Source: Cochliopodium minus
Lineage: Eukaryota > Discosea > Himatismenida > Cochliopodiidae
DNA: 33,404 nt
Assembly: GCA_024220525.1 (NCBI GenBank)
Contig: JAMYWO010000267.1
Location: forward strand, 21,060-54,463
Reading direction: 5' to 3'
Part shown: in pieces, positions 2,570 to 27,515 of the stretch
Position numbering within the stretch: position 1 is the stretch's first letter
Layout: each line of letters begins with the position of its first letter
The notes under the pieces: model-generated
Seen by the model: the letters and a program-made list of their open reading frames with translations, nothing else
The model's database searches: none
What the model was told of the DNA's origin: nothing
Made by a program: the position numbers and the translations under genes

Positions 2570-5462
2570 TTATTCAATATCAGAACTGTTGTTTTCATCA
2601 TAGCCATCCTTGTATCCATCTCCATCACTAAGTAAAAAAAAAAAAAAAAAAATTTATTAAAAAAAAAAATAAAAAAATAAAAAAATAACAAATCATATTT
2701 TGGCTACCTCACTTTAACTTGTTGTTGTTTCCAAATGGAAGAGAAAGGAGATCCCAAACAAAAATTTTCTTTATCTAAATTGAACTTGGGGTTTTTGTAA
2801 CTGTCCTCAATAAGCTGGGTGAGCGAATTAAAAGACTTATTAGAAGATGATTGATCTATTGAAAATTTTCCTCCTATCAAATAAAAAAATAATTAAGAAA
2901 AAAATAAAAAAATAAAAAAATAAAAAATATGAAAAAAAAAATAAAAAAATAAATTAATAAAAAATAAATTAAAATGTAAAATATAAAAAAAATTAAGATA
3001 TTTAAAAGAATAAAAATTTTTTAAGAAAAAATAATAATACCAGGGTTGTGTTTGACTCGAATATGTACGATGTTATTTTTTGAATTTATTTTGGAGATAA
3101 CAAAGTAACCTTTGTAGTTAGGCTGATTGCCAAATCTTACTATGTAAGCTCCCTTCTTATCTGATTTTTGAAGCAAAGAAACAGTGTCCTTATAAAAAAA
3201 AATAAAAAAATATCAATAAAATCAAAAAAATTAATAAAATTAATAAAAAATAAAAAATAAAAAATAAAAAATAAAAAATAAAAAATAAAAAATAAAAAAT
3301 AAAAAATAANTAATAAATAATAAATAATAAATAATAAATAATAAATAATAAATAATAAATAATAAATAATAAATAATAAATAAATAATAAATAAATAAAT
3401 AAATAATAAATAAAAATAATAAATAATAAATAATAAATTATAAATAATAAATAATAATTAATAAATAATAAATATTACAGGAAAATCAACGAAAAGTTTC
3501 GAGATATCACTCATAGATTCTGTTCTTTCTATTTTACCTAAAACAAAAGATAAAAACAAAAAGATAAATAATAAAGTAAAATAAAATTAAAAAAATTAAA
3601 AATAAAGAATTAAATAAATAATTAAATAATTAAATAATTAAATAATTAAAATTAAAAATTATAAATTAATAAAAAATAAAAATAAAAAAGAAAAAGAAAA
3701 AAAAAGGGGGAAAACCGGTTTCTTCATTGATGCTATTAGATATTTTTTCTAATTCTTTCATCACTTTTGTGACTGCTTCATAGTCCCTCTTCTTCCCTTC
3801 CCATTCTTTATTTTCCACTCTGTCTCTCTCTCCAATTTTTATTATGTCTTTCTCTCCTATCTTTATTATATCTTTCTCTTCTAACTTCATATTTTTCTCT
3901 TCTAACTTTATATTTTTCTCTCCTATTTTTATTATATCTTTCTCTTCTATCTTCATATCTTTCTCTTCTATCTTCATCATATCTTTCTCTTCTATTTTTA
4001 TCATTACGCTTTCTATTTCACCATTTCTTTCTAAATTATCATTTCTCTCTGTATTATTGTTATTATTGCTATTATTATTGTTATTATTATTATTATTATT
4101 GTTATTATTATTATTATTATTACTATTACTTAAATTATTATTATGATTATTATTGTAAGTTTCATGTCTATTTTTATTTACATTTTTATTTCTTTCACTA
4201 TTTACAATATTTTCATCATCAAGACCTTTACTCTCATTAATATCATTACCATCAATAACATCATCACCATCAATACTATCATTACCATCAATAACATGAT
4301 TTGTATCATCATTTGTAATAATAACATCATTTGTATCATCATTTGTAATAATAACATCATTTGTAACAATAACATCATTTGTATCAATAACATCATTTGT
4401 AACAATAACATCATTTGTATCAATAACATCATTTGTGATAATAACATCATTTGTAATAATAAATATTTCTTTATTTATAATTTGTTTGTTTTCAATTTCA
4501 TCATCATTTTTGTCATTATTAGTGTCAATATTGTTATTTATATTTTCAATATTAACATTTTTGTCATTATTAGTGTCAATATTGTTATTATCAAATGAAT
4601 TATTGTAAAATTTGGGAAGAGGTAAAGACTTTTGAAGTTGTGAAAAAAACAATGAATATTTCAACAATCTCTGTACTTTATTCGTTTAAATAAAAGAATA
4701 TTTAATTAAAGAATATTATTTTATTGAAGAATATTATTTATTGAATATTTTTTAAATCAAAAATTTTAATAAATAAAGAAAAATATTGATTGAAATTTTT
4801 TTGTGTTCAAATACCAGGTTTAACCAAAAAATCATCTAATTTAAGAAGTTTGTACTTTTTGGAGATTTGTGCTTCAAACTTTTTAAACTTTGAATTATTT
4901 GACCTTTATATTTCGTTTCATTTAGTAGATTTTTTTCATTTTCATTTTTTTTTTTTTCAAATTTTTTTACCTATTTTGATTTAACACTACTATTGCCTTT
5001 TTCCAATTTGATGTATATTGATCATATATTTGAAAATTGTGAACCTTTTGATAGAAAATTTAAAATTAAAATTAATTAAAATAAAAAAAATTTTATAATT
5101 TTAAAATAAAAAGTAATTATTGAAAGGTTTTTTAAAGTTTCCAATAAATTTACAAATTCAGAAAAAAGATTAGATAATTCAAAGATGATGGTGTGATCAT
5201 TGCTTGGATGAAAATTTGTTAAAAGATCATTCAATTTGGAGTTAACCATTTCATGTACAGATTTGATCAATTCAATATTGGAGAATAAAGATAGAAGATC
5301 CTTAGTATTTAATATTTCTTCTTCTCTTATTTGCTTAACAAATTGAACAATGATAATAAGATCTTCCAAATATTTTTCTTCTGTATCGAATAACTCTTTT
5401 AAAGTTTGAAATTGAAATTCTTTCAAGTTGATATCGGTTGTTTTTGTAAAAGTCTGTTTCAT
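2570..5462 (-). CDS. Rho guanine exchange factor: DH domain split by simple-sequence insert, then SH2
   Basis: Eight exons: 5154-5462, 4971-5044, 4815-4903, 3716-4675, 3479-3537, 3041-3188, 2708-2873, 2570-2627; 620 residues. The DH domain (Rho GTPase nucleotide exchange) starts near residue 18: LKELFDTEEKYLEDL is the first conserved helix, and LDDFLVKPVQRLLKYSLFF is the KPVQR helix, restored exactly by the splice 4815/4675. About 270 residues of simple sequence follow (Asn/Asp/Thr-Asn-Asp-Val-Ile repeats, poly-Asn, charged KIEEKD repeats). The frame then returns to a last DH-like helix (YEAVTKVMKELEKISNSINE). The SH2 domain (about 495-595) shows GAYIVRFG with the phosphotyrosine-binding Arg, HIRVKHNPGGKFSI and a SFNSLTQLIEDSYKNP helix. 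The tail is acidic. No PH domain is seen, which is unusual for a DH protein. It probably links phosphotyrosine signals to Rho at the membrane. It is divergent with the eEF1B-gamma gene. Confidence 0.85.
3235..3478. repeat. Intronic AT microsatellite (hexamer, then heptamer AATAATA)
   Basis: This lies in the 290-base intron between exons 5 and 6 of the DH-SH2 gene. It begins as AAAAAT-type units and passes near 3310 (where the assembly has a single n) into about 20 copies of a 7-base AATAATA unit with slips to 4- and 8-base spacing. The n suggests the assembly was unsure of repeat length. Confidence 0.85.
3844..4600 (-). repeat. Coding simple-sequence repeats in the DH insert
   Basis: On the coding strand, from high to low coordinates, there are NNNIDTNNDKN repeats (4510-4600), about ten TNDVI/TNDVIVTND units (4290-4460), GDD/GND units, a poly-Asn run (4040-4140) and about ten KIEEKD/KIGEKD/KLEEKN units (3844-4010). 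The frame is kept for 960 bases, so the repeats are translated unless removed by a cryptic splice. Confidence 0.85.
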
Positions 5463-5787
5463 TTAAATCTAAATTAAAGAAATATATATTTCTATTGTCA
5501 TTTTTACTAGTTTCTTCTTTATATATCTATTCAATATCTCTTTATTATCTTTTTCCATTTCTATAATCAATTTTTTATTTTACTTTTCTTATTTTAAATT
5601 TATCTCATTTTTATTGTATTTATTTAACAACTTTAAATTTTTATTCAATCCCATCCTATTGCAATCTTTCTCAAATATTTCTTCTATTCTGAATATTTTT
5701 CTCAAATAATCAAAATAAATATAAAAAAATTCAAACAAATAAATAAAAAATAAAAAAAAAGTTTCTCCTTAAATAACTTCAACAAAA
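5463..5787. promoter_or_regulatory. Divergent promoter region
   Basis: These 325 bases separate the start codon of the DH-SH2 gene (minus) from that of eEF1B-gamma (plus), so both promoters must lie here or overlap. The stretch is T-rich on the plus strand in the middle and A-rich just before the eEF1B-gamma ATG. No defined motif can be called in such AT-rich DNA. Confidence 0.5.
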
Positions 5788-18526: not shown

Positions 18527-21500
18527 TTAGTTGATTTTGTTGTTGGTGTTGAAAGTTCCGCTGTTGATTCTCTCATTAACAAACTCTGGAGTCAACTCTT
18601 CTCTTTTAGCAGCAAAAAGATCGCAATGGACTTGACCAATCATCTCTTGAGCACTTCCTTTATGAGTGGTTAATTTAGCTCTTTGAATTGTCTTAATCTA
18701 AATAAAGAAAAAAAGGTTTTTTTTAAAAAAATGAAGAAAGTTATAAAAGCAAGATACAAACAATAAATAATTTTTTTTTTTTTTTTTAAACAATAAATTA
18801 ATAAATAAATAATTTAAAAAAATAAATGAATAAAAGGTTTGTTTACCCCCTCTCCCATGTAAGTTACAAAGATAAACTTTACAGTTTTCATGGTTTGTAC
18901 TATTACGTCATTAACACGTAACAAGCCATAATAAGTAGAGTTTTTGTCATCTTCAATGGAATTTGCCAAACCCTAATTGTAAAAAAAAATTAAAAAAATA
19001 AAAATAAAAATAAAAAAAATAATCATACTTCGATACCACTGTTACCAGAACCAACTAATCTCAATTTGGCAGAAGAAGGGTTGTTGTTGACATAACCGAA
19101 CAAAACAAAGTCATAATCAGATTCATCACTTCTCACTTTCTTTAACTCTTCCTTGCAGTCATCTGAATCAAACGCCAACCCCAAATTTGCTAATTTAAAA
19201 AAAATAAATTTAAAAATTTTTAAAAAAAAATAAAAATTAGAAAAATTAAAATCTGTTTTTGAAATTTTAAAAATTTTACTTGTGTTGACAATATTGGTTC
19301 CTCCTTTTGGATTATTAATTCTTTATTTATTTTTTTTCAATGAAAAATGTTTTTAATAAACGAAAATAGAAAACTTGTAAAAAAAATGAATACAAAGAAG
19401 AACCTCCTCTACCAACAACAGACCTATTTTTATGATTAATAAAATAAAAAATGAAAAATAAAAATATTAAAAGTAAAAAAAAAATAATAAAAAAAATAAA
19501 AAATAAAATAAAAAAAATAAAAATAAAAAATAAAAATAAAAATAAAAAAAATGTAATAATTTAAAATAAATTTAGAGGAGATTTACTTTGTAGGAGGGTT
19601 GGAAGGTTTAGGTTGAGTGTTAATTTTTTGTACTACAGGCTCGTTTTGGGTTTCGACGATGTTAGATTTGGTTCCTGCGATTTGTGTTACTTTTTGCAAA
19701 ACTATTTCGTCGCTCAAATCATTAGGTTCAGATGCCGCAATTGAAACTATTTTTCAAAGAAATAAAAATAAAAAAAATAAAAAAATAATAAAATAAAATA
19801 AATAAAAATAATAAAAAAAATGAAAAAAATAAAAATAGAAATATAATAAATACCGTGAGCTTGTCCCAAGAAATCAAAGATTGTTCCCTTGAAAGTGACA
19901 GTTTTTGCTTTTCTTACAGTTGAAATGGAAGCTCCTACCCAATCTTTTATGGGAATAAATTTGGAAAAAAATAAAAAAAATTAATTTAATGTTTATGTAT
20001 GTATTAATTGATTTTAAAATAAAAAAATTTAAATATTTTGTTTAATATTTGAAAATTAATTATTTACCAATAGTTGCGTATCTTACTACCATTTGGCTGT
20101 CAAATTGAATTTCGACTCTAGTAAGTGCAAATCCGAGCATGTCTTTGATTTAAAAATAAACAATTTATTAAAGAAAAATAAAATAACAAATAAATAATAA
20201 AGAAAAATAAAATTAAGAAAAAAATAATAAATAAAAACCAAATAATTTTTAAGAATAAAATGATAAATAAATACTAAATAATTTTTATTTTCATTTTTAT
20301 TGAATCAAATTTAATTTTGGAAATTCAAAAATAATTGAAAAAATATAAGATTGAAGAAAATAAAGATACCTGGTTTTAAATGTTCTACTAATTCGTTGAC
20401 CCCTTGGGTACCTTCAGCTACCAACTCTATGTTGTTGGTTTGTCCCTAAAAAATAATAAAAAAATAAAATGAAAATAAATGAAAATAAATAAAAATGAAA
20501 ATAAACTTTAATATAATTATAAAAATAAATTTAAATAAAATTATAAAAATAAAATAATAATGAATAAACAAGTTTTAAAGAATCTTTGAAAAATAAAAAA
20601 AATAAAAATTAATTAAATAAATTTGGTTACTTGATAAGCGATCAAAACCCAAGCGTTAGTAGTGTTTCTCACAACTTGAATGGCTCTTTTGATGTTCTCT
20701 TGGTCCAAAAATTGCAACTGACCTGTTTCTATTTTCCCTTGTTGTTTGATGTCTGTGCTCTTGGTTTCTCTTTCGTTGTTTTCGTTTAAAACACGAACAC
20801 TGCTACCAGATGCATCAGATACCTTTGTATCAAAAAAAAAAAAAAAAATTGAAATTTCAAATTGAATTTATGGGATTTTATTCTTTTCTTTCATTTTTAG
20901 TATTCTTACTTTTTGTTGAATAATATCTTGTTGCAAATCATCCAATATTATTGCATCAATGGTTACGTGTGCTTGTCCAATGAAATCTTTCATTTTACCG
21001 CGATGGGTGACGGATAAACTTTTGACGAATATTTTTACTGCCTTTCCTATCCACACGATGAAAACAAATCTTTTTTATAATTGAGAAATGAAATCTAATT
21101 TATAATTTGTTTGATTTTAATTTGATTTTGTCATACCTTGTTACTGGGAGATTATCTATGGTATCAGTAACTTTTAAGAGACCATATTGTATTTGATCCT
21201 CTTTCAAATGTGTTTTCAATTCTTCCAATCCTCCACTTCCTTTTATGAAACAAAAAAAAAAAAAAGGTAAGGAATGGTGTTAATATTTGTGTTTTTGAAT
21301 TTTATTAATTTTTATTATTTTTTTTCACTTAAAAAATAAAAAATTTATGATAATATTCAATTTAATATTTTTCTGATTCTTCTTTACCTTCAGATTGGAA
21401 AGTAATTATTTTTTTATCTTGATATCCAAAGAGAGTCCTTCAAATTTAAGAAAATTAAATTTTATAAAGGAGAATGAAAATTTCAAAAATTTAATTACCA

Positions 21501-22552: not shown

Positions 22553-22651
22553 NNNNNNNNNNNNNNNNNNNNNNNNNNNNNNNNNNNNNNNNNNNNNNNN
22601 NNNNNNNNNNNNNNNNNNNNNNNNNNNNNNNNNNNNNNNNNNNNNNNNNNN
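22553..22651. other. Assembly gap
   Basis: 99 unknown bases. The sequence to the left is the inside of an aldo/keto reductase gene on the minus strand; to the right is a reverse-transcriptase-like scrap on the plus strand. The two sides may not be truly adjacent. Confidence 0.98.
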
Positions 22652-22727: not shown

Positions 22728-23565
22728 ATAGTTAAACAGTTAAAACCAAGAATCGCATCGAAATAAAAACAAAAAATAAAATATTTTTCTTTCTAATTAA
22801 GATATGTTATTCTCGGGCATAATGAACATGCCCTTAAAAATTTTTTGGAATGCTTTTATAAGATAAAGTGATTTCAATTGTAAAGCAATCACCATTATTT
22901 TAAGAATTATAGTTGAAATGATCTGATATAAACAGAACTCAAAAATTTGATGCTAAGAAATTTCGAATAATTCAAGATTTTTCCGGATTTTTATAAAAAA
23001 TATCACATATTTTTCAAAATAATAGGTATTAATTGAATTTACATTATCTTTTTTTAAAACAAGGATGTAGCAAATTACTACTCTCATTGATAAAAGGAGC
23101 AATTGGTCAAAAATTCCAAAAGCCTTAACAAAGATAAATTCTTTCAGAAACAATTCTTTCTCAAAAAAATGAGTAATATATAATTTGTGATACAAATGAA
23201 ACGTGTTTTTAGCTTATATATTTCAATTAAGCTTAACCCAAAAAAATCTTAATAATTCTCATATGACAATATAAAAAAATTCAGAATGTATATTTATTAA
23301 GTTTCACAATTGGATAAGAGCCAAAATCAAATAATTAATAAATATAAAAAAATATTCCAATGAAAAAGTTGTTCAAAAGAAAAATTTCATCAATTGAAAG
23401 GGAAATAAAATATTGTACCAAAATTCCTTTTTGGAGTTTTTCCAACATCAAATCATACACAAAGATAAGGCATTTCTCAACAATTGATGGTATCAAATTA
23501 ATAATTTTCAACACATAATTTTTATTCATATTTTTTTTAATAAAGAATCAAATAATGTGAGAAAA
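22728..23565. other. Gene-poor spacer before the Crinkler-like gene
   Basis: About 840 bases with no supported gene. There are open frames of 60-80 codons on the minus strand (near 22953-23195 and 23335-23529) rich in Ile, Leu and Phe, as expected by chance in AT-rich DNA. A small perfect inverted repeat, GGGCAT..ATGCCC with a 7-base loop, lies at about 22817-22835. Decayed mobile DNA is possible given the scrap next door. Confidence 0.5.
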
Positions 23566-26514
23566 ATGGAGATTCAAGTTTTGGAAAAGAATTTTGATCT
23601 TTCAGCAGATGAAGTTCTCGGAGTAATGAATGATTTACCAACAAAAGAATTTCCAGAGGGATTTATAGAGGAATTAAAGAAGATTCAGAATAGGAAAAAG
23701 TTTACAGGAAGAAATTTCTTGGATCTTACTGAGAATCAATTGGGGAACTATTTTAAGGGAAAAAAAGAATTTGCAGGACAAGCTCTTTCTGTTAAATATG
23801 ATTTTAAAGTTGCATTGCAAAGTAAGAGTATTATAATTTAATTTTTTTATAAATATTTTTCTTTGCAAGAAAAAAACTTTAGAATTCTTGAAGAACAAAT
23901 AAAAAATGGAGTTGAAATTGATGGGATCTCCAAGTACAAGGAACATATTTCTCCTTCTCAATGGAAATCTCTTGTCTCTTTATTCCATGGAAACTTAGAA
24001 TCTCAAATCAAAAATGGAACTACCATTGATGAGATCTCCAAGTATGAGCAATTTCTATCTCCTTTTCAATGGGAATCTCTTGTCTCTTTATACCAAGGAA
24101 ACATAATGAATAAGATTCGTTTATTCATTAGCAATCCAAAATCATACAACTATAACATCCAAACATTTAGGAATGATCTCAATAATTTCCCAGAAAATAA
24201 AAAAGAAGAAATTTGCCAAGGAATTGCTAATAGCTTTGGTTCTCTCAAAAAATTATTACTATCATGGAGCATTGAGACAATGAAAGTAAAAATCAAAGAG
24301 ACAAAAGAAAAAGAAACAAAGGAAGTAATTATCAGTCCAAAATAGGATTTTGCAAAAGCGAACAAATTAGCTAATGGAATTGTAGTATCAAAAAATAACC
24401 ACGTTGAATTGTACAAGTATGATCAAAAGGAAAGATTGTTAGAAGAATTCATGAACCATCTTGAAAAGAGAGCAGATAATTCTATCTCGAATGAAAGAAA
24501 ACCTTTTCTTTTGTATTTTCATTCTCCAGGAAATGGAAAAACTGCTAAACTTGATGAGATCACCAGAATGGCCATTACCAATGAATTACAAAAGGAAATC
24601 AATCAACCAAAAGTTCTTTATCCACAACTCGAAAATTGTTTGGCAATTATCATCACTTATAATGATAAAATGAATTCTCATAATCTGATCTTCGAGAATG
24701 GATTATATGAAACTGATTTGATTGCAAGGAACTATTATTGGTAAAATTTTTATAAAAAACTTTTCAAATTAAAACTTCTTAATCTTCCAAGTTATTTTTA
24801 TGATCTCGATGCTTCTGGTTCAGATTGTTACGAAGAATTCTCCAAAACGTTCTCAATATTTTTTAAGCATTTGAAATACAAAATAGCCATCGAATGTTTG
24901 ATTCAAGATTGGAAGGAATTCAAAAAAACAGTTAGGGATATCTTTTTCATTTCATGCATTGATGAGTTGAGAATATTGGAAGATAAAAAAACTGGAGATC
25001 TTAGTCGTATTCAAAAAGTTTTGGAAATCGTAAAGAAAGAAAATAACCCATTAATCCTGTATGCTTTTACTGCTCTGGATCCAAGAGTTTTTGAGTATTC
25101 TGGTTTGACTTTACATAAATCTACTTTAGGAAGGTTTCTAGATTGTAAAATAATCAAAAGAATGCTAACAGAAAAAATAGAAAAATTGCCGGATTTACTA
25201 CCAGTTCCAAATGATCCAAAGGAAAAAACAATCTTTCTAACTACTTTAAAATTATCTGATGGACATTATCGCACCATTCAATCTGTAATTTCTTCTTTTT
25301 TTTATTCATCAAAATAAAAGCTTTAAATTATATTTGGTATAAGTATAAAGTATATGAAAATATATAAAAATATAAGAAAAAAATAAAAATATATAAAAAT
25401 TTCTTTCTTCTCAAAGATTGTATACAGATACATTGAATTCAAAAAGTATCATGAATCTCTTTCGTCCCAACAAATAATTGAAGAATTGACTTATTGTCCT
25501 CCAATTGTAGATCTAGTGGATCCACAATTTGAAAATAATTGGATTATTCTTGCTGCAGCTATTCTCCATTGCAATTTGAATTTGGATGATGAAATTTTAA
25601 AAGGAGAAAAAGTACTTTCTTTTATCATTCAGGGAGCTTATTTGAATGATTTAAAAGCAATAGAATATAATAGTAATACCCAAATTAAACCGATCACCCC
25701 TCATGTTTCTTTTATACTTCTCTATTCTTTTGCTCGTTATGCTTTAAAGTCAAGTGTAGATCAAAAGACTTTTGTTATAGCCAAATTGATAGAAAATTGT
25801 CTTAAAGTTGATGATTCAAAAGCATTTGAAAAATTTAATGCTCTTTATCTCCTATTGATTCTCCAATTGAGATCTTTTCTTTGTTCACCCCAAGAATACA
25901 TGACAAAATTCCTTGAGCAATTCACCCAAAAGAAGACTTTAACTGTGAAAGAACTTTTTCTCGACAAAATCACAACAGATGAGAATCACAAGAATCTTCT
26001 AAATTTGCAACTTAAATTGCTTGATGATAATGGGGTTCCTTTCATTTACAAATTCGATGAAGATAAAGATAGACCCTACGATGATAAAGAAACAAAAAAA
26101 CAGCCTGGAAGATCTTTAGAGGAAAGATTTTCAAAAGAAGAAATAGAATTCAATACTTTCTATCTTTCGAGCCAGAGTACTGAAGCAGGTATTGAGGGTT
26201 CTATTCTTTTACCTCTTTCAAATGGAGGTTCTCTTTTGATTACCCTTCAAACTAAGCTGAAATTGGAAAATACAACTGGCTATTCTTATACAACAGGAAT
26301 AAATAAGATTCTTGAAGCCTCAAATCATTTGAGATCTTTCCTTTCCAATAAAGGGACCAAAATACAAAGTGTGCTTCCAATTCTTATCACAAATAGAGAT
26401 ATCTGTAAAAATAGTACAAATACAGATGGAATTATGATCATTCATGATAAAGATTTGGACAAATTTTTTGGTCATTCCTTCTCTACATTTCCTTTTCGCA
26501 ATTCATTTCTCTGA
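23566..26514 (+). CDS. Crinkler-like protein: SAM-like header, P-loop NTPase, nuclease-like C-terminus
   Basis: Five exons: 23566-23821, 23870-24285, 24346-24740, 24792-25284, 25417-26514; 885 residues. Introns of 48, 60, 51 and 132 bases all have GT..AG ends and keep the frame; the 60- and 51-base ones each remove one stop. The first ATG of the frame is used. A SAM-like header (FTGRNFLDLTENQLGNYF) is followed by a two-copy repeat of about 34 residues (ISKYKEHISPSQWKSLVSLF, ISKYEQFLSPFQWESLVSLY). The NTPase has Walker A HSPGNGKTAKLDEI (Lys near 289) and Walker B FFISCIDELRIL (Asp-Glu near 413). The C-terminal part has an E(780)..QTK(798-800) pattern like the restriction-endonuclease fold of Crinkler proteins. 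Such NTPase-nuclease proteins occur as effectors in oomycetes and chytrids and also in free-living protists, where roles in conflict or genome defence are suggested. No signal peptide. Function here is unknown. Confidence 0.65.
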
Positions 26515-27515
26515 TAATTTCATCATGAAAATTTTTTTGAAAATTTAATCTTTAAAAATAAAAAAATTTATTTGCAATGCTTTGCTCTTTCAACAAGTAA
26601 ATTCACAGTGTTCACATTGCCATGGATGAGTCTTCCTGGATGACAAAACTGTTTTTTCACTTACAAACTTTTTTTTTTGAAAACACCCACAAAGTGGGAT
26701 ATCTTTATTTAAAATATTAAACATAATCAAACAAAAAAGTATTAAATTATTCCAGATAATTCAATCAACATTTGGTAGACTCCAAATTGGAAGTCCAAGA
26801 ATGATTATCAAGACTCTTCTATTTTTACAACTTTCCTTGTAGCATTGAAAAGAAGATTTTGAAGAGAAAGATTGTTTTTTTTGATTCTTTTTTTGATATT
26901 TCACATCTTTTTTTTTATTTGCTATTGAGATACCTTGGTTATATGAGATAAAAAAAAAAGAATAGAAAGAAAAAGAGTTAAATTGTTTCAGGAGTAAGAA
27001 AGCAGCACAGAGTAGTTTGAGAATTTACATTTGTTTGACAACTTTTTGTCGAATACTAAGATATTGACAAAAAGAAAGAAATGAAATTTTTTTGAGGTTT
27101 TTTTGATTATGTGTTGAAATTGAGAAGCGAAGATGAAGGTATTCATTGAATTTAACCTATTTTTCAAAGTTTTTGACTTGTACACTAAAGTCAACAATTC
27201 TTAAAGCTATTGTACACAATTTCCCAATAATTCTTCCAAATTGTCCAATTATAGATCCAACTGAAAGTGTGGTTGGGACCATCATTTGTACTTGAGATTC
27301 TCAAAGATGAAAATTATAATAATTCCTTTTGTCTTCAAATTCGGCATGGTAAAAATCCTCAATGGTTTCCTTCAAACAAACTTTAGAGAATGTGAAATAG
27401 GGTGATGCTGGAACTTAAGGAAATATTTCTTTAATTTTAGAGGGGAATTTTAATAATTTCAATTAAAAAAAATATAAAAAAAATTGGAAGATAAAAATTA
27501 TTCTTGAATATTAAT
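26515..27515. other. Gene-poor spacer, possible decayed coding DNA
   Basis: 1 kb between the Crinkler-like gene and the phosphatase. The base mix is less AT-rich than introns, and stretches near 26580-26700 and 27190-27400 read as fairly ordinary protein on the minus strand (for example HPWQCEHCEFTC and VPTTLSVGSIIGQFGRIIG), but with frequent stops and no splice model that joins them. This could be a decayed gene or mobile element. I recognise no family. The phosphatase promoter must lie near its right end. Confidence 0.4.

Follow-up and report, generated by a model that had tools for sequence, protein, structure and literature searches.

A probably interrupted member of a small gene family with a P-loop NTPase core, a nuclease-like end and a mosaic 5′ cassette in Cochliopodium minus

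We analysed a stretch of 33,404 nucleotides of Cochliopodium minus DNA (the window). The genome searched was the 44.65-Mb assembly of 598 contigs, in which the window is C266:21060–54463; other copies are named here after their contigs. The gene under study lies on the plus strand of the window, as do all parts of it given below, and runs from an ATG at 23566 to a TGA at 26514. The original prediction joined five exons into a protein of 885 residues. Exon 1 (23566–23821) encodes a header (residues 1–85), and intron 1 (23822–23869; 48 nt, GTAAG..GCAAG, 52% T) falls at the boundary between the header and the repeats. Exon 2 (23870–24285) holds two repeats of 36 residues, visible as a direct repeat with a spacing of 108 nt, and a linker. 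After a disputed 60-nt ‘intron 2’ (24286–24345), the P-loop NTPase starts in exon 3 (24346–24740) and continues in exon 4 (24792–25284), and exon 5 (25417–26514) encodes a region that is helical judging by its sequence and a nuclease-like end with the stop codon.

Introns 1, 3 and 4 have GT..AG ends and 39–52% T. An intron at the position of intron 1 is also found in the copies on C41 and C118. Intron 3 (24741–24791; 51 nt, 39% T) occupies the same site, before YFDL, in C41 and C57. Intron 4 (25285–25416; 132 nt, 39% T) has a counterpart at the same site in C57 and none in C41. Thus the ATG-to-TGA gene and the introns of 48, 51 and 132 nt were retained from the five-exon model, whereas the 60-nt ‘intron 2’ is very probably coding.

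The assembly gap that had been placed next to the gene consists of 99 N at 22553–22651. The description of the surroundings as gene-poor was overstated, because four exon-like frames on the minus strand upstream (18527–21074) matched Cofilin_ADF (best value 1.5 × 10−7); a single frame passed the cut-off. These frames appear to belong to cofilin/coactosin-type genes, so the stretch is not gene-free. The proposed LINE scrap amounts to a likeness of 25 residues seen by eye, and a Pfam search of the scrap gave no match. A dispersed repeat lies just 3′ of the gene (26669–27079) and has at least 42 genomic matches, the window’s own among them; one listed match lies downstream of the C138 copy. Just 5′ of the gene, another repeated stretch (22734–22964) is 83% identical to positions 1349–1591 of locus L042. 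Single N bases were observed at position 3310 of the window, at 5475 of locus L035 and at about 2834 of locus L039, in low-complexity sequence or where the sequence changes abruptly, and these sites look like assembly joins.

The predicted P-loop NTPase with both Walker motifs was confirmed. Walker A is SPGNGKT (24523–24543, exon 3) and Walker B is CIDEL, with D413 and E414 at 24961–24966 in exon 4. The usual Walker A pattern begins with a glycine, where the window copy has H. We aligned the window protein with the copies on C41, C15, C193, C39 and C69, which were picked as long and readable as spliced models, while the gapped or broken C57, C137, C121 and C138 were left out. Identity to the window protein was 33% for C41, 25% for C15, 25% for C193, 23% for C39 and 22% for C69. 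Among others, G286, G288, K289, N330, D348, R352, D413 and E414 were invariant in all six members, as was R516 (25270–25272) in a GHYRT-type motif of exon 4. When the window copy and C41 were taken as one profile and the remaining four members as another, hhalign aligned the two across 618 columns (E 8.7 × 10−36). In C193, Walker A reads GKK instead of GKT, and therefore open copies need not all be ATPases.

The nuclease-like E..QxK C-terminus described earlier was also found to be conserved. In exon 5, D734 and D736 (26056–26064), E780 (26194–26196) and Q798-T-K800 (26248–26256) are invariant in six of six members. In the window copy, 17 residues separate E780 from the QxK motif. A spacing of E, 17 residues and QxK is also that of Mrr-like PD-(D/E)xK nucleases. 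We consider the C-terminus a putative PD-(D/E)xK-type nuclease, whose active site would be E...QxK. Between the NTPase and this end, the only helix-turn-helix match was HTH_36 in C39 (residues 365–392, E 0.14).

The window copy is one of at least ten related loci in the genome. With the last exon as query, at least ten places on nine contigs were found at E ≤ 0.001, the window included. The whole gene model as query adds C138, and the C15 core as query adds matches to the NTPase part on C86, on C273 and at a second place on C121 (E ≤ 0.01); all these locus counts are lower bounds. The spliced models of C15, C193, C39, C69 and C41 are open across the core. C137 carries many stops, C138 has a stop and a 2-base gap relative to the other copies, and C85 also contains stops. 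As each of these three copies carries several breaks, decay is common among the paralogs. The loci appear to form a small, fast-changing birth-and-death gene family in which the front ends differ between copies.

Some further features were seen at these loci. Directly downstream of the C41 copy, on the minus strand at C41:162027–162800 (L003), lies a P-loop ATPase gene (AAA_22, 4.7 × 10−5, below the cut-off), which has one other match in the genome, on C279. The C69 copy (L047) is a single-exon frame of 841 residues; its C-terminal extension is SAP-like by eye, and Pfam gave no match to it. On C57, a gene end lacking the C-terminus stands at an N join (L035, 98500–107500) and a C-terminus only follows a run of N (L036, 61500–69500), and the two pieces may be a single gene placed apart.

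The header had been called SAM-like, a name that we could not uphold, since it matches no SAM model in Pfam. The headers of the window, C41 and C118 gave no Pfam match at E 10. An hhalign comparison of the three window-type headers with the SAM header of C193 gave a probability of 0.5%, although so few sequences make this a weak test. The C193 header is a true SAM domain (SAM_2, 8.7 × 10−7) and also matched PDB SAM domains. The header of C39 is weakly PB1-like (E 0.013, under the cut-off), and that of C69 matches no family name and is distinct from the window type. An alignment of four headers, including the SAM row of C193, gave no meaningful match to PDB by sequence.

Two repeats follow the header as predicted, with a period of 108 nt, that is, 36 residues and not 34. 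The direct repeat (23896–23997 and 24004–24105) is 81% identical, and the units span about 23890–23997 and 23998–24105. The number of units differs between copies: two in the window, at least four in C57 and one in C41. The two units of the window gave only matches below the cut-off in Pfam (BofC_C, 0.0019; LRR_RI_capping, 0.003). The four-unit array of C57 exceeded the Pfam cut-offs of three families: LRR_RI_capping (1.6 × 10−10; 41 bits against 33), CTLH (1.7 × 10−7; 31.8 bits against 26) and P22_AR_C (22.7 bits against 22.4). We doubt that any of the three identifies the repeat, and tentatively read these matches as short pieces summed over near-identical units.

We compared the 5′ part of the gene among the copies. 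A window-type header or repeat is present on C266, C118, C138, C85, C38 and C41; C57 has the repeat with no visible header, which would fall in a run of N, and C2 has a scrap. This header stands before a core of the A2 type in the window, C41 and C138, and before a different P-loop core in C118, C38 and C85. In C118, this core contains the motifs SGSGKS and GVDEL. We do not claim the C118 core as a homolog of the family: of 2000 shuffled versions, 1782 were scored and two reached its score of 7.4 against the family profile, and with an unrelated frame of the window the score was 5.8.

A 5′ cassette of 618 bp, which comprises the flank, the header, intron 1 and repeat 1, is 86–93% identical to C118 and C138 (identities computed without gap columns). 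The flank (23380–23565) travels with the header, and the promoter and 5′ UTR would thus be part of the exchanged cassette. It is identical to C138 at 158 of 172 bases and to C118 at 146 of 170; by the search program’s own count the values are 85% and 79%, and five places were found in all. Against C138, identity is 92% in the flank, 91% in the header, 91% in intron 1 and 93% in repeat 1, and beyond repeat 1 it falls to 73%, 60% and 67%. The 5′ side (540 of 589 bases identical) differs strongly from the part beyond (418 of 613; Fisher’s test, p = 4 × 10−25), and the noncoding 5′ parts by themselves (201 of 219) also exceed the 3′ part (p = 2 × 10−13). Beyond the repeat, C138 is identical to C57 at 436 of 469 bases of the NTPase part. 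Against C118, identity is 86% in the flank, 89% in the header, 87% in the intron, 91% in repeat 1 and 69% in repeat 2, with no homologous core beyond the repeats. The corresponding values for flank, header, intron and repeat 1 are 60%, 85%, 91% and 67% with C85 and 80%, 78%, 87% and 67% with C38. Cassette exchange thus appears clear only with C118 and C138, and is less clear with C85 and C38.

In C118 and C138, similarity in the flank and the intron is as high as in the exons. Selection at the protein level therefore does not explain the similarity, and recombination or gene conversion fits it. We suggest that such events took place with a border inside the repeat array.

The 60-nt stretch 24286–24345 ends with an in-frame TAG (24343–24345). 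It has 13% T and 27% GC, against 39–68% T and 6–19% GC in 15 other inferred introns (three of the window gene and 12 of its relatives, chosen by eye or by spliced alignment, not blind). The corresponding stretch of C57 is an open reading frame that differs little in length; the alignment is loose, with identity at 33 of 60 bases. C41 has no intron at this position. Because of this base composition, the open frame in C57 and the absence of an intron in C41, we read the stretch as, very probably, a charged coding linker interrupted by a TAG. A true or newly arisen intron, formed by intronisation of coding sequence and allowing the full 885-residue protein to be made, seems unlikely to us for the same reasons, even though the stretch has GT..AG ends and a length that is a multiple of three, the frame is kept on either side of it, and the rest of the 2.9 kb is intact and under purifying selection.

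The frame beyond the TAG extends over 655 codons without a further stop. Comparison of the window copy with C57 gave a dN/dS of 0.36 for 551 codons and of 0.33 for the 423 that follow the TAG; both estimates also cover the common history of the two copies and change along the C57 lineage. Under simulated AT-biased neutral drift at 0.05 substitutions per site, 6.9 stops arose on average and none of 300 runs stayed free of stops. This codon pattern indicates that the frame beyond the TAG is under purifying selection. A clean frame under such selection means that the break is very recent, or is an assembly error, or is bypassed. A reassigned TAG codon was ruled out, as in-frame stops are absent from the five other members of the alignment. 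The gene could be intact, with no intron 2, if the TAG were a base error of the assembly: the frame has no other defect, and gaps of N as well as single-N joins, at which the sequence changes, occur in the assembly. However, decay is common in the family, as several breaks in each of C138, C85 and C137 show, and we regard an assembly error as improbable. We favour a TAG that inactivates the window copy. The original prediction had named decay of the gene as evidence against itself; the window copy does look broken at one point, with a clean frame elsewhere.

Searches for relatives outside this genome gave little. The best Pfam match of the window protein was LRR_RI_capping (E 0.17), which is meaningless, and no NTPase or nuclease profile matched. 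The family alignments gave weak matches only against Pfam, NCBIfam, PADLOC and PHROGs. One of these, PADLOC mad8 (E 0.0013, one of six members), was taken as P-loop noise. The core gave no meaningful match to PDB by sequence, and pattern scans of viral and prokaryote genome contigs found no relative. Scoring in each protein search was limited to the roughly 8,000 candidates sharing most words with the query. Among these, neither the 885-residue model (at E ≤ 1) nor the six-member alignment found a relative. The C15 core (residues 70–778) found one, P0001 (E 1.6 × 10−39, 29% identity). P0001 is a JGI metagenome protein of 602 residues on a 3.35-kb contig, and its header and Walker A lie outside view. 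It keeps the DE of Walker B, the arginine of RTLQ (the equivalent of R516), DxD, E and QxK, and a single comparison with window exon 5 gave 2 × 10−9. The protein collection searched probably consists mostly of prokaryotes and metagenomes; therefore absence from it says little about other protists.

The plan of the protein resembles STAND/NACHT NTPases (PF05729, PF20720) in that Walker A and B are present and a header and repeats adjoin the NTPase. C15 matched these two profiles weakly (E 0.0019 and 0.0064, below the cut-off), the former being the best Pfam match of any core, and the window copy matched neither. In the usual STAND layout the repeats stand behind the NTPase, whereas those of the window copy precede it. 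The likeness of the C-terminus to Mrr-like nucleases is one of motif spacing, as no library gave a sequence match. It is conceivable that the C-terminus is some other or degenerate alpha/beta domain and that the protein is a STAND-like ATPase sensor only. The lack of a nuclease profile match and the failure of structure prediction (two AlphaFold models, mean pLDDT 36.9 and 33.7) would agree with this, and because of these low values the nuclease fold is deduced from the motif and its spacing. The invariance of DxD, E and QxK in six of six members, their presence in P0001 and the nuclease-like spacing make a sensor with no nuclease doubtful, and we retain the putative nuclease.

The gene had also been called Crinkler-like. 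PMC5289972 describes Crinkler-RHS-type proteins as modular proteins that swap headers and have the plan header, NTPase, HTH and REase. Our protein shares with them the order of header, P-loop NTPase, middle region and QxK nuclease-like end, as well as several copies, interchangeable headers on different cores and no clear signal peptide. Unlike them, the window header has no Ubl motif, and 36-residue repeats stand between header and NTPase. No Crinkler or REase profile matched the window protein. PF07999 (RHSP) gave no match in the protein or the genome, and the control genomes also gave none. PF20147 did not match the protein and gave one match below the cut-off in the genome (C154, 17.7 bits, cut-off 24.6) and none in 14 control genomes. 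The N-terminal Crinkler motifs LxLFLAK, DWL and HVLVxxP, as given in PMC5289972 and PMC11064341, are absent from the 885-residue model. The protein fits the Crinkler-like plan, with its header, repeats, P-loop NTPase and QxK end, but homology to the known profiles could not be shown; by sequence, the protein would not count as a canonical Crinkler.

This plan could also suggest a secreted or injected effector that acts against another organism, since it resembles the Crinkler plan (PMC5289972). The absence of a signal peptide had been predicted and was confirmed: the N-terminus is not hydrophobic, and the best 15-residue Kyte–Doolittle mean in the first 60 residues is 0.51. This is weak evidence against an effector, because PMC5289972 reports that the presence of signal peptides in Crinklers in general has come into doubt. 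The missing N-terminal motifs and the lack of a PF20147 match above the cut-off in the genome also speak against it, and we consider an effector very unlikely.

With a probability of about 0.6, we regard the window copy as a gene that was interrupted recently and that belongs to a small family evolving by birth and death, with a header, 36-residue repeats, a P-loop NTPase, a middle region and a PD-(D/E)xK-type nuclease, and with no visible secretion signal. The order of the parts and the swapping of headers lead us to read these as putative conflict proteins. In the intact relatives, partner binding or assembly of the protein would most likely fall to the header and repeats. ATP binding would serve as the switch that sets the C-terminal nuclease free to act on DNA or RNA, whether of an invader or of the cell itself. 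A toxic nuclease with a regulatory NTPase is carried over by analogy only, from Crinkler-RHS-type proteins, for which PMC5289972 and PMC11064341 present these roles as the current view. The ATPase and nuclease activities and a role in defence or conflict are likewise predicted from the sequences. The 5′ cassette would recombine among copies, so that one header could serve different NTPase cores.

More tentatively, a portable 5′ cassette of regulatory DNA, header, intron and growing or shrinking repeats may recombine onto at least two intracellular P-loop cores. In a genome with no detectable standard Crinkler/RHS profile, it would then be a system of the protist’s own making that diversifies conflict NTPase-nucleases. 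We hold this broader proposal to be possible but less likely than not.

The window copy is a caution, in that a tempting GT..AG intron conceals a stop codon. If the intact paralogs are ATP-gated nucleases, the family, small and tractable, would allow the swapping of headers to be traced in the DNA of a eukaryote, and it would bear on the choice between defence inside the cell and attack on a host.
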